A stretch of 64,000 nt of DNA from Acetobacter okinawensis (GTDB lineage: Bacteria > Pseudomonadota > Alphaproteobacteria > Acetobacterales > Acetobacteraceae): positions 1-64,000 of the forward strand of contig NZ_JOPJ01000007.1 in assembly GCF_002153655.1 (NCBI RefSeq), in the 5' to 3' direction. The notes beneath the pieces are model-generated. The model was not told the DNA's origin, did no database searches, and saw nothing but the letters and a program-made list of their open reading frames with translations. Shown here piece after piece: positions 10,851 through 42,326 of the stretch. Within the stretch, counting starts at the first letter, position 1, and the number at the start of each line of letters is the position of its first letter. Position numbers and translations under genes: made by a program.

Positions 10851-12221
10851 ATGGCCGAGCCGAATACCAAGTCTGTTGTTAAACCCGCGACAGGTCTGCG
10901 TAGCCGACACATCGCGATGATCGCACTGGGCGGGACAATTGGCGCAGGGCTGTTTGTGGGGAGCGGAGCTGCCATTCAGGCCACAGGGCCCGCAGTTCTG
11001 CTGGCTTTTTTGCTGGTAGGGCTGCTGGTTATTCTGGTCATGCGCATGCTGGGCGAAATGGTGGTGGCGGACCCCGGCCGTGGGTCATTTGTGGAATATA
11101 TCCGTGCAGCACATGGGGACAGGCTGGGCTTTACCTCGGGCTGGCTGTACTGGTTTTTCTGGGTTGTGGTGCTGGGCAGTGAGGCAATAGCCGGTGCAAT
11201 TCTGCTACAGGACTGGATTCACCTGCCTATATGGGTTTTGTCCATTGGGTTGATTGTGCTGCTTAAGCTGGTCAATTTTGCCGCCCCGCGCGTGTTTGGC
11301 GAGTGCGAGTTCTGGCTTTCTGCCATCAAGGTTTTCAGCATTCTGGCGTTTGTGGCCATTGGCGCGCTGTATGTGGTGCATGTGTTTGGCCCCGGTGTAC
11401 CCGTGTGGCACAACCTGATCGGCCATGGTGGGCTGATGCCGCATGGCATTGTGGCTGTTCTGTCCATCATTCCCACCATTCTGTTCACCATGATGGGGTC
11501 GGAAATTGCAACGGTAGCTGCCGGGGAATCCCCCGAGCCAGACAAAAACGTGGCGCGGGTTACGCGTAGCCTTGGTACACGTGTAACCCTGTTCTATCTG
11601 GCCTCCGTTGCCATGATCCTGCTTGTGGTGCCGTGGAGCAGCATTGTTGCTGGTCGCTCTCCGTTTGTCACGGCCATGGACACAATGGGTATTCCCGGTG
11701 CGGGTATGATGATGCGCATTGTGGTGCTGAGCGCCATTCTGTCGTGCCTTAACTCCGCGATGTACATTACTTCACGCGTGTTGACCGAACTGGCCACACA
11801 GGGGGATGCCCCTGCCTTTCTGACCCGTCGCTCGGCCAGTGCGGCCCCTCGCATGGCCATTACGGTCAGCAGCGTGGCGGGTACGCTGGTGGCGTTCTCG
11901 TCCATTCTGGCGCCGCAGACCATTTTTGCGTTTCTGCTGAGCTGTAGTGGTGGGGTTATCCTGCTGATTTATAGCCTGATTGTAACGGCCTACATCACAA
12001 CCCGCTTTGCAGCCCGCCGCAACGGGACGGAAAAAGACAACTACACGCTGTTCCTTTTTCCGCTGTGCAATTACGCAACCCTTGTGGGTGTGGTGCTGGT
12101 GTTTGTTGCCATGCTGATCAACCCCGCAGAGCGCATGACCGCGCTGGCCACATTGGGCACCTCGGTTGTCTGTTATGCCATGGCCTCGTATTTTGCGGCG
12201 CAGAATAAGCGGCAGGCCTGA
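10851..12221 (+). CDS. Amino-acid permease, APC superfamily (AAT family)
   Basis: An inner-membrane proton/amino-acid symporter of 456 aa with about 12 membrane helices. The first helix has the family motif IALGGTIGAGLFVGSGAAI, followed by MRMLGEMVV; NSAMYITSRVL in the middle is also typical of the GabP/CycA/ProY branch. The substrate cannot be read from sequence; proline, GABA or aromatic amino acids are candidates. The ATG at 10851 (MAEPNTKS) is preceded by aaagga. It probably shares a transcript with the upstream porin and ends at the strong terminator at 12245-12279. Nearby putA makes proline an attractive guess. Confidence 0.88.
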   Translation: MAEPNTKSVVKPATGLRSRHIAMIALGGTIGAGLFVGSGAAIQATGPAVLLAFLLVGLLVILVMRMLGEMVVADPGRGSFVEYIRAAHGDRLGFTSGWLYWFFWVVVLGSEAIAGAILLQDWIHLPIWVLSIGLIVLLKLVNFAAPRVFGECEFWLSAIKVFSILAFVAIGALYVVHVFGPGVPVWHNLIGHGGLMPHGIVAVLSIIPTILFTMMGSEIATVAAGESPEPDKNVARVTRSLGTRVTLFYLASVAMILLVVPWSSIVAGRSPFVTAMDTMGIPGAGMMMRIVVLSAILSCLNSAMYITSRVLTELATQGDAPAFLTRRSASAAPRMAITVSSVAGTLVAFSSILAPQTIFAFLLSCSGGVILLIYSLIVTAYITTRFAARRNGTEKDNYTLFLFPLCNYATLVGVVLVFVAMLINPAERMTALATLGTSVVCYAMASYFAAQNKRQA

Positions 12222-12244
12222 TTTTTTGTAACGCCTCACGTATC

Positions 12245-12279
12245 AAAAAAGGCCCGCCAGATTCTGGCGGGCCTTTTTT
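12245..12279. terminator. Bidirectional intrinsic terminator
   Basis: The stem GGCCCGCCA/TGGCGGGCC (12251-12273 with a short loop) is followed by TTTTTT and preceded by AAAAAA, so it can work on both strands. It sits between the converging permease and DUF1275 genes. Confidence 0.9.
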
Positions 12280-12313
12280 GTTTGTATGTTCAGGTCCGCT
12301 TACAGCCAATGCA

Positions 12314-39215: not shown

Positions 39216-40214
39216 TTATTCCTTGCCAAAGGAGGTCCAGTTCGTCCCTCCCATTGTCCATGCCAGAATACCCTTTTGGGCGTGCAGGCGGTTTTCGGCT
39301 TCGTCAAACACAACGGAATGGGGGCCTTCAAACACATCCTGCGTGACTTCCTCCCCAATATGGGCAGGCAGGCAGTGCATGAACAGGGCATCGGGGGCGG
39401 CAAGGGCCATAAGCCCTGCATCCACACGGTAAGGCTCAAGCCGTGCCATGCGCGATGCAGCCTCCTCGTGTGAGTCGGACATGCTGACCCATGTGTCGGT
39501 AACAATGCAGTCTGCTTTTTCTACGGCTGCGCGGGGGTCTTCCATCCACTCCACATTGCCGCCTTCCTGCTTTGCCCAGTCGAGCACGTCCTGCGGGGGT
39601 TTCATTTTTGCAGGTGTTGCCGCCCGGAGGGTAAAGCCAAAGCGCACTGCCCCTTCAATGAGCGAGACCAGCACGTTGTTGCCGTCCCCCGTCCATGCAA
39701 AGGTGCGGCCACGCACGGGGCCGCGGTGCTCCTCAAAGGTCATGATATCGGCCAGAATCTGCACGGGGTGGGAGTGCGGGGTCAGGCCGTTGATAACCGG
39801 GCTTGTGCTCCAGCGTGCGAGTTCATGCAGGTTTGTGGTGTTGCCTGTGCGCAGCACAATAGCGTCCACAAAGCGTGAGAGCACACGTGCCGTATCGGCC
39901 AGAGTTTCCCCCCGTCCGATCTGCATGTCCTGCGGGCTGAGCACCACGGCATCGCCCCCAAGCTGGCGCATGCCCACTTCAAAGGAGACGCGTGTGCGCG
40001 TGGAGGGCTTGGACAGAATAAGCCCAAGCTGCCGCCCGGCCAGAGGCTGGCGTGGGTGTAGCGGAAAGCGGCGGTTCTGCTGCATCCGCTTCATGCTGCT
40101 GGCAACGTCCAGAATCTGCCGCAGGGTTGCCCCGTCCAGGTCCCGGAGGTCAAGAAAATGGCGAAGACCCGTCTGCACCGGTGTTATGGATGAGGTGGAA
40201 AGGGCAGCACTCAT
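39216..40214 (-). CDS. argF: Ornithine carbamoyltransferase
   Basis: Makes citrulline from ornithine and carbamoyl phosphate in arginine biosynthesis. The 332-aa protein has the carbamoyl-phosphate motif SKPSTRTRVSFEVGMRQLGG, the ornithine loop DTWVSMSDSHEEA and the Cys motif FMHCLPAHIGEEV. The start overlaps argD's stop by 4 bases, so it is coupled to argD. Confidence 0.96.
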   Translation of the reverse strand: MSAALSTSSITPVQTGLRHFLDLRDLDGATLRQILDVASSMKRMQQNRRFPLHPRQPLAGRQLGLILSKPSTRTRVSFEVGMRQLGGDAVVLSPQDMQIGRGETLADTARVLSRFVDAIVLRTGNTTNLHELARWSTSPVINGLTPHSHPVQILADIMTFEEHRGPVRGRTFAWTGDGNNVLVSLIEGAVRFGFTLRAATPAKMKPPQDVLDWAKQEGGNVEWMEDPRAAVEKADCIVTDTWVSMSDSHEEAASRMARLEPYRVDAGLMALAAPDALFMHCLPAHIGEEVTQDVFEGPHSVVFDEAENRLHAQKGILAWTMGGTNWTSFGKE

Positions 40215-41425
40215 GGGGTTGTCTCCAGCACGGGCTTGTTTTTGTTATCAGGTGTGCCGCGCAGGGCTGTTACCGCCTGCACCAGCATGGCCACGGCCTT
40301 GCGGCAGTCTTCCTCCGTTACGGTCAGGGGCGGGACAAGGCGCAACACGTTGTCCCCCGCTGTAACGCACAGGAGTCCGGCCTGCTGGGCTGCGGCCTGC
40401 ACATCCCCCACGGCAGGGACGCAGCGCAGGCCAATAAGCAGGCCAAGGCCACGGCGCTGCGCAAAAATATCCGGTGCATCGGCTACAAGGCTGTCAAGCA
40501 GTGTGTCCAGTAATGCGGCACGGGTGCATATCTGGTCCATAAAGCCCGGAGCCAGCAGCACGTCCAGCACGGCATTGGCGGCAGCACAGGCCAGCGGGTT
40601 CCCGCCAAAGGTGGTGCCATGCGTGCCTGCGGTCATGGCCTGGGCCACGGTCTCGGTCGCCAGAATGGCCCCGATGGGGAACCCCCCGCCCAGCCCTTTG
40701 GCCGTGCTCATGACATCGGGGGTAATACCTGCCCACTGGTGGGCAAACAGGCGACCGGTACGGCCAACACCACTCTGCACCTCGTCAAGGGCGAGCAGTA
40801 CGCCGGTCTGGTCGCACAGGGCGCGCAGGGCGCGCAGGTAGTCCACGCTGGCGCATTTAATGCCGCTTTCGCCCTGCACGGGTTCAAGCATAACGGCTGC
40901 GGTACGCGGGGTTATGGCGGCCTTTACGGCCTCAATGTCATTAAAAGGCACATGCACGAAGTCGCCTACCGGCGTGCCAAAGCCTTCCAGATATTTCGGG
41001 TTGCCCGTGGCGGAGAGCATGGCCAGCGTACGGCCATGGAACGCACCGTCCATGCAGATGATTTCGGTCCGTTCCGGGTGGCCTGCCAGCATTTGCGCGC
41101 GGCGGGCCATTTTGACCATGCCTTCGTTGGCTTCCGCGCCGGAATTGCAGAAGAACACGCTATCGGCAAAGCTGTTGGCCACGAGCCGCTCGGCCAGTTT
41201 TTCCGCCTGCGGAATGCGGAACAGGTTTGAGACATGCATGACCCGCCCGGCCTGCTGGCTTATGGTTTCCACCAGATGGGGGTGGGCATGGCCAACGGAG
41301 CAGGTGGCAATGCCTGCTGCAAAATCCAGGAATCGTCGCCCGTCCGATGCGTACAGCCAAGAGCCTTCGCCCCGCTCAAAGGCGAGGTCGGCACGCTTAT
41401 AGGTCGGCATCAGGGGAGGAATCAT
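40211..41425 (-). CDS. argD: Acetylornithine aminotransferase
   Basis: A PLP enzyme converting N-acetylglutamate semialdehyde to N-acetylornithine. The 404-aa protein has CNSGAEANEGMVKMAR, FHGRTLAMLSATG, LDEVQSGVGRTG and the PLP lysine in MSTAKGLGGGFPIG. First gene of the arg operon. The ATG at 41425 has a poor ribosome-binding site; an ATG at 41410 (MPTYKRADL) is an alternative. Confidence 0.95.
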   Translation of the reverse strand: MIPPLMPTYKRADLAFERGEGSWLYASDGRRFLDFAAGIATCSVGHAHPHLVETISQQAGRVMHVSNLFRIPQAEKLAERLVANSFADSVFFCNSGAEANEGMVKMARRAQMLAGHPERTEIICMDGAFHGRTLAMLSATGNPKYLEGFGTPVGDFVHVPFNDIEAVKAAITPRTAAVMLEPVQGESGIKCASVDYLRALRALCDQTGVLLALDEVQSGVGRTGRLFAHQWAGITPDVMSTAKGLGGGFPIGAILATETVAQAMTAGTHGTTFGGNPLACAAANAVLDVLLAPGFMDQICTRAALLDTLLDSLVADAPDIFAQRRGLGLLIGLRCVPAVGDVQAAAQQAGLLCVTAGDNVLRLVPPLTVTEEDCRKAVAMLVQAVTALRGTPDNKNKPVLETTP

Positions 41426-41490
41426 GGAATCTGGTCTTTACGTTGGTGGTTATCAAACCTGAATGAGGGAGTCTGGAGCAGCGCAAAACA

Positions 41491-41526
41491 AAAAACGCCC
41501 GCTACCGTAAAAGGGTGGAGCGGGCG
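41491..41526 (-). terminator. Intrinsic terminator inside the argD leader
   Basis: On the minus strand the stem CGCCCGCT/AGCGGGCG (41519-41526 and 41496-41503) is followed by TTTTTT. It lies 66 bases upstream of argD and downstream of the promoter at 41546-41575. No minus-strand gene lies behind it, so it most likely acts on the operon's own leader. Confidence 0.75.
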
Positions 41527-41545
41527 GCCCGTTGCGCATCTGGGT

Positions 41546-41575
41546 ATAATGCCGCGTTCATGTTGTGGGTGTCAA
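41546..41575 (-). promoter_or_regulatory. Candidate promoter of the argD operon
   Basis: On the minus strand a perfect -35 box TTGACA (41570-41575) is followed after 18 bases by CATTAT (41546-41551, 4 of 6). Transcription would start near 41539, only about 13 bases before the terminator stem. The plus strand at 41545-41550 reads TATAAT, but without a -35 box. Confidence 0.5.
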
Positions 41576-41657
41576 ACTTCTGCATTGAACAATTTGCATA
41601 CCTCATATGCGGTTCTGAACTTTAAAGTGTGGGGGCGTAGTGGTGTGGAGGGGCAAC

Positions 41658-42326
41658 ATGGGCATAGTATCCGTTCCCATGGACAAGACCGTGCCCCTTT
41701 CCTTTACCTGCCCGCCGCCGCAGCGTTCCACTCTGCGGGAGGCGGCTTTGGCGCATCTGGCCCGTTTTGGCACGACCCGGCAGGGGCTTGAGCAGGTTCT
41801 GCTGCGCCGGGTAGCCCGCTGGGCACAAAAGGCCCAGCGCGCAGGCGACTGTGCGGAGGCCGTGGCCGAACATGCGGCGGAACTGCGCCCTGTTGTTACA
41901 GGTATTGTGGATGACATGGTGCGCCTTGGCGCGGTGGATGACGCGGTATTCGCCCGCTCACGCGTACGCAGGCTTGTGCGCTCGGGGCGCTCGGGGCGTG
42001 CTGTGGATGCGCATCTGGCAGCAAAAGGTGTGGCCTCCACCGTGCGGGATGAGGCGCTGGAGACAGCGGTAGGCACGCTCGGCCCCGCAGAGCGGGAGGT
42101 CTGTGCGGCTCTGGTGCTGGCGCGCAAACGCAGGCTCGGCCCTTTTTGCCCTGCCGACATGATGGATATGGATCATGAGGGCGAGGCCACAGCCATGGCC
42201 GCGCGGCACCGGGCGCTGGGGGTTCTTGCGCGTGCAGGCTTTGCGCGTGACGTAGCCCAACGTGTGCTGGACATGCAGGCTGAGGAAGCGGAGGCGTGGA
42301 TGGATCGTTTGAGGGCCGAGTCGTGA
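41658..42326 (+). CDS. RecX-like regulatory protein
   Basis: A 222-aa, Ala/Arg-rich all-helical protein with three-helix repeats (VVTGIVDDMVRLGAVDDAVF, RRHRALG-like ARHRALGVLARAGF). This is the architecture of RecX, which blocks or modulates RecA filament growth. Sequence identity to E. coli RecX looks low, as usual for alphaproteobacterial members. The ATG at 41658 is preceded by ggagggg. The end overlaps the next gene by 4 bases. Confidence 0.75.
   Translation: MGIVSVPMDKTVPLSFTCPPPQRSTLREAALAHLARFGTTRQGLEQVLLRRVARWAQKAQRAGDCAEAVAEHAAELRPVVTGIVDDMVRLGAVDDAVFARSRVRRLVRSGRSGRAVDAHLAAKGVASTVRDEALETAVGTLGPAEREVCAALVLARKRRLGPFCPADMMDMDHEGEATAMAARHRALGVLARAGFARDVAQRVLDMQAEEAEAWMDRLRAES

Follow-up and report, generated by a model that had tools for sequence, protein, structure and literature searches.

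The window considered here, the whole 64,000-nucleotide stretch of DNA that was analysed, comes from contig NZ_JOPJ01000007.1 of Acetobacter okinawensis and carries the overlapping arginine genes argD and argF, which are preceded by a short leader and, beyond it, by a divergent recX-like gene (Table 1). A sequence-only reading of this region had proposed that a TTGACA/CATTAT promoter starts minus-strand RNA near 41539 and that a GC-rich hairpin with a T6 run follows about 13 nt further on, and both features are where it placed them: the two hexamers (41575-41570 and 41551-41546) are separated by an 18-nt spacer on the minus strand, and the hairpin with its T run is found at 41526-41490. Its arms are CGCCCGCT (41526-41519) and AGCGGGCG (41503-41496), and the T6 run is followed by GTTTTGCGC, again on the minus strand. 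The hairpin was also rightly positioned before argD, the distance from the T run to the argD start (41425) being 64 nt by our count and not the 66 nt given earlier. The remark that no upstream minus-strand gene needs a terminator is likewise correct, as no sizeable minus-strand gene was found just upstream of the promoter in the window, where the neighbour is the recX-like gene on the plus strand. A role as terminator of an upstream gene was thus rejected, and it was rejected as well for Gluconobacter and Asaia, where a same-strand gene seems to end upstream, yet the promoter is located between that gene and the hairpin.

Table 1. Features of the argD-argF leader and its neighbours (positions of the window)
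Feature	Position	Strand	Basis or remark
-35 hexamer TTGACA	41570..41575	-	promoter scan; TTGAC kept in 45 of 49 Acetobacter genomes
-10 hexamer CATTAT (relatives: CATnAT)	41546..41551	-	promoter scan; start ~41539 predicted from the promoter match
P1 5' strand GCGCAACGGG	41528..41537	-	predicted RNA 5' end; covarying outer helix, alignment A4
P2 hairpin CGCCCGCT/AGCGGGCG, bulged U 41504, CC/GG, loop	41496..41526	-	same hairpin by RNAalifold on alignment A2
T6 run after P2	41490..41495	-	terminator-like; in the P1-P2 fold it forms the internal loop's 3' side
P1 3' strand, CGUUUUGC-like in relatives	41480..41492	-	overlaps the end of the T run
argD, acetylornithine transaminase	40211..41425	-	NCBIfam NF002325/TIGR00707 over cut-off
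argF, ornithine carbamoyltransferase	39216..40214	-	overlaps the end of argD; NCBIfam TIGR00658 over cut-off
recX-like divergent gene, outside the leader element	41640..42326	+	RecX models below cut-off, best E 3e-16

Scores taken from the window are ordinary. The promoter scan gives 2 sites in 8 kb versus 1.8 in shuffles, so that the promoter match alone is unremarkable; the hairpin is absent from the terminator-scan list for the window region because its loop exceeds 8 nt; and the 115-nt leader folds slightly better than shuffles (z -1.24, with 22 of 200 shuffles equally good). Conservation was therefore needed to decide on significance. When the 215-nt intergenic region was used as a query, matches were obtained in 15 of 41 genomes, all 15 congeneric, and most of the remoter matches span little beyond query positions 105-158, that is, the hairpin RNA (window 41536-41483). 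Among 49 Acetobacter genomes, 45 keep the promoter (TTGAC-N18-CATnAT, the spacer invariably 18), 45 have a terminator-like site at the argD leader, and 43 have a match at argD to R1, a model built from 8 leaders; these 43 comprise 30 loci, 10 further genomes, and G007, G240 and G011, which were assigned by coordinates, the best match in G007 and G240 lying elsewhere in the genome than at argD. All 30 of the 30 loci are directly before argD, and of 20 R1 sites that were fetched, 8 are not at argD and are mostly ordinary hairpins such as that of dnaK-dnaJ. No R1 match was found in the other 6 of the 49 genomes: G254 and G251 retain the promoter and have a hairpin with a different P2, the small, AT-rich genomes G012 and G016 have lost the leader hairpin and retained argD, and G256 and G020 have, close to the 5' end, just a plain hairpin that is not followed by a U tract. 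The hairpin is conserved across relatives; a lack of such conservation was one of the two grounds that the sequence-only reading had named for giving it up. Three side observations belong to these searches. The leader L051, from an Acetobacter metagenome-assembled genome (MAG) of sheep abomasum, has lost the hairpin, with argD kept, and L293 (from G012) is the same leader sequence. In the Acetobacter sequences L171 and L175 a hairpin whose arms are the same, CGCCCGCTCC...GGAGCGGGCG, is located between dnaK-like and dnaJ-like frames (named by eye from the translations). The second-best leader-model match in the genome of the window (12236-12291, plus strand) is a symmetric ordinary terminator, GGCCCGCCAGATTCTGGCGGGCC with T6, which sits after an amino-acid permease-like ORF ending at 12221.

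The conserved unit is larger than a terminator and has three parts: P1, an outer stem that extends from the predicted 5' end; an internal loop rich in U; and P2, an inner hairpin with a one-base bulge on its 3' side. P1 is about 2 nt from 41539, its closeness to the 5' end being that to the predicted start only. The P1 consensus in Acetobacter is GNAA-CGG with C(G/U)G-UU-UUNC, and 5 of its pairs show double-sided changes, with 23 such cells versus 10.8 +/- 4.3 in shuffles (0 of 500) in an alignment of 31 rows (29 distinct) that was fitted to the structure model, so that the counts lean towards the model; slid versions of P1, which served as the control, give 0 to 14 double-change cells. Within the genus P2 is invariant at 7 of its 10 pairs, which exceeds the need of a mere stem, and selection may be acting on a specific binder or on the terminator. 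As P1 and P2 are mutually compatible helices, P1 would not act as an antiterminator. A DNA operator was considered and rejected, since the distance between the two arms of P2 is not constant (most Acetobacter have loops of 10 to 16 nt) and the changes in P1 are compensatory.

Folding stability was followed along 154 argD leaders gathered without picking, two of them Rhodobacteraceae-like and a few from MAGs of uncertain family. TTGAC is found 85-175 nt before the start codon in 120 of these, and 74 leaders were left after similar ones had been collapsed; the 34 that were left out have no TTGAC in this range (e.g. L021, L026 and L034) or, in many cases, TTGAC only 55-80 nt before argD, where the element does not fit, and the element is accordingly not universal in argD leaders. 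Across the 74 leaders, 60-nt windows reach a mean z of -2.16 at TTGAC+30 (36 of 74 below -2), compared with -1.17 and -1.49 when the window is shifted by 10 nt in one or the other direction, and with -0.21 to +0.61 in windows at least 30 nt away; the stability peak coincides exactly with the predicted transcription start, and the mean z is near zero elsewhere. At TTGAC+30, 22 of the 74 have a z above -1. A further observation concerns eleven leaders (L206, L212, L216, L218, L219, L226, L227, L230, L234, L242 and L256) in which TTGAC is just 57-65 nt before argD, too close for the element to fit between them, a placement that would reflect its gain or loss within the family.

Elsewhere in the Acetobacteraceae, Asaia, Swaminathania, Brytella, Gluconobacter, Neokomagataea, Bombella and further members have a TTGAC promoter at argD that is directly followed by a hairpin with different bases. 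In three of these leaders (L057, L058 and L059, from Gluconobacter, Asaia and Neokomagataea) a same-strand frame ending in ...CWLARDL.Y is found upstream of the argD promoter, where Acetobacter has the divergent recX-like gene. In other family members, which we label the 'non-acetous' or 'deep' group (the split being our own), the architecture of the Acetobacter leader recurs at argD with compensatory changes and no U tract; a covariation set of 12 diverse leaders has a consensus of about CUUCCCGGAACCGYCCGCGCA-N-GGGCGCG...CGGCGG..CAA..CCGGGAA; 10 of 19 pairs are double-changed, with 21 cells versus 10.6 +/- 2.4 (0 of 500 shuffles) and 4 to 14 cells in slid versions of the structure. Both strands of the internal loop and the tetraloop are strongly conserved in this group while the helices covary, and alignment A5 contains clade-specific conserved bases (AACCG, the ANGG loop and CAA). 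Without structure input, RNAalifold returns the outer helix, the internal loop, the inner helix and the 3' bulge in three separate clade alignments; it predicts no pair on 29 mixed acetous leaders (A1), which we put down to misaligned 5' halves.

Searched in 200 family genomes with E up to 0.1, model R3 gives 28 matches, spread over 27 genomes; 21 of these matches lie just before ArgD. Eleven of the 28 come from genomes of the training set, 8 others have E<1e-3 and 9 are weaker; 7 of these 8 are at argD, and the eighth, from one of the same genomes, is truncated where its contig ends; the 9 weaker ones divide into 3 at argD and 6 elsewhere. All matches with E<1e-3 that lie fully within their contig are just before ArgD (18 of 18, 7 of them from genomes outside the training set). 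Among 289 genomes of the class R3 has 2 weak matches only (E 0.003 and 0.008), which is near chance. The Acetobacter model R2 did not find the argD leader outside the genus, its weak matches resembling chance or ordinary hairpins. The Acetobacter model misses the non-acetous group and R3 misses the acetous group, and the loop bases conserved in the former are not common to the latter; homology of the two elements is suggested by position and architecture. The model searches of Acetobacter, family and class genomes never found the element at other arginine genes.

Terminator character has a narrower distribution. The window hairpin has a GC stem and a U tract (8-bp stem, T in 7 of the first 8 bases after it), and a rule requiring a stem of at least 5 pairs with at least 3 G-C, a loop of 3-16 and at least 5 T in 8 picks out 29 of 29 Acetobacter leaders versus 2.3 in mononucleotide shuffles, 13 of 25 leaders from other acetous genera versus 2.0, 4 of 6 acetous leaders without TTGAC versus 0.0, and 2 of 37 non-acetous leaders versus 1.0. 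In L054, L057, L058, L060 and L061 the terminator-like site is nearer to P1 and is not P2. Judged from these leaders, almost all Acetobacter would have the terminator-like character, other acetous genera would have it here and there, and it would be missing from the rest, the 5'-end structure being the wider feature. Because the same leader structure occurs without a terminator outside the acetous genera, termination is not the conserved core; because the U-rich tract is kept in Acetobacter, early termination with an RNA of about 50 nt is plausible there. The suggestion of the sequence-only reading that the hairpin insulates a second promoter close to argD finds no support in the promoter scan, which lists no promoter between the hairpin and argD.

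ArgR (PF01316) was not found over the cut-off in any of 60 Acetobacteraceae genomes, with 8 of 14 controls over the cut-off. In a family without recognisable ArgR, the leader RNA is a candidate for the control of the arginine genes. The promoter match, the two helices with their conservation and covariation, their position and their restriction to argD are directly supported. The reading to which we incline, by a small measure, is that of a structured leader RNA, specific to this gene and acting in cis, which occupies the very 5' end of the argD-argF mRNA and is overlaid with a terminator in Acetobacter. In the proposed model, transcription would begin at the conserved promoter, from the match to which we infer the start, and the first bases would pair with the strand just past P2 to form P1, so that the message would open in a closed stem-loop. 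The basic action would be on the 5' end of the message, by way of its half-life, its handling by ribonucleases or the capture of an RNA-binding protein, and this would set the amount of ArgD and ArgF made. A U tract would have arisen in Acetobacter from the stretch that separates P2 from P1, and P2 would there also let go some of the polymerases at about 50 nt past the start, yielding a short RNA.

Alternatively, the element could be a pure 5'-terminal stabilising stem-loop, without termination and without a signal, which we regard as possible, though unlikely. Such stabilisers are known, the ompA and papA leaders of E. coli being among those cited in PMC3997798, P1 starts within a few nt of the predicted RNA start across genera, and G256 and G020 have plain 5' hairpins in place of the element; this explanation does not account for the invariant P2 and the U tract in Acetobacter, nor for the clade-specific conserved bases of A5. 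Somewhat less probable still is an arginine-responsive attenuator, in which P2 and the U tract would form a terminator under regulation, opened by a shortage of arginine. The terminator-like sites of the Acetobacter leaders and the lack of ArgR over the cut-off speak for it, and of the compact arginine attenuator proposed in the sequence-only reading the conserved promoter, hairpin and U tract in Acetobacter stand. A leader peptide and room for a sensor before the hairpin do not: with about 13 nt before P2, neither a leader peptide nor a sensor domain could be accommodated 5' of the terminator, so that attenuation of the classical kind is unlikely. No start codon precedes the hairpin in L004, L010 and L011, and an ATG in the window leader is not conserved in relatives, so that leader-peptide attenuation was rejected. 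The one alternative pairing found by eye in the sequences, CGG(G)/(C)CCG, is 3-4 bp long, and the short stretch before the stem gives no room for a strong antiterminator. Several Acetobacter leaders (L158-L167), moreover, have a weak U tract, and outside the acetous genera there is none.

That the leader is a riboswitch or an autoregulatory site, binding a metabolite or an enzyme of the arginine pathway, appears improbable to us. The strongly conserved internal-loop strands and tetraloop between covarying helices in the non-acetous group would suit a binding site, and the single-gene distribution fits autoregulation, yet the element was never found at another arginine gene, the conserved loop bases are not shared by the acetous group, and there is no Rfam match. 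Equally doubtful is the more far-reaching proposal that, in a family lacking ArgR, the arginine pathway is sensed, through a metabolite or an arginine enzyme, at this small 5'-terminal RNA as a class of RNA regulator not described so far, the internal loop of which would have turned into a terminator in Acetobacter. A stand-alone small RNA of about 50 nt acting in trans would have its own promoter and, in Acetobacter, a terminator-like end, but nearly every base is paired, leaving no free seed, and the element is always directly before argD (all 30 loci), which makes this very improbable. Chance matches of a promoter and a hairpin, for which the ordinary single-window scores could be cited, are ruled out for practical purposes by conservation and covariation over dozens of species.

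Turning to known systems, no match to an Rfam covariance model fell on the leader in the window region up to E 5, and ten further loci had none up to E 1. A literature search, which covered titles and the beginnings of abstracts mainly outside the subscription journals, returned no argD leader of such a kind. Promoter-proximal intrinsic terminators and amino-acid attenuators combine a GC stem with a U tract. The Acetobacter argD leader resembles them in having both about 50 nt past the promoter, and differs in that it has no leader peptide and no visible antiterminator and in that the terminator is missing from most non-acetous members examined. Among 5'-terminal stabilising stem-loops, those of the E. 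coli ompA and papA leaders, cited in PMC3997798, are similarly placed, the argD stem-loop likewise taking up the bases with which the message is predicted to begin; the argD leader differs by its conserved internal loop, its bulge, its clade-specific bases and the terminator overlay in Acetobacter, and any effect of it on half-life is putative. For Gluconobacter oxydans, SAM-II, glycine and other Rfam leaders have been reported, with seven predicted elements, and transcription start-site data exist, the primary and whole transcriptome of strain 621H being public as ENA PRJEB18739 (PMC5756330). Like these, the argD leader is structured and belongs to a biosynthetic gene of an acetic acid bacterium; unlike them it matches no Rfam family, and in the accessible part of that study argD is not among the seven elements and arginine is not named (PMC5756330). 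We read the argD leader RNA as a gene-specific structured 5' leader, which is not listed in Rfam and could be added as a family. One lineage appears to have turned the structural leader into a terminator-like one, and for arginine control in the Acetobacteraceae a covarying RNA with which the argD transcript is predicted to begin, found at no other gene, provides a small and directly testable candidate.
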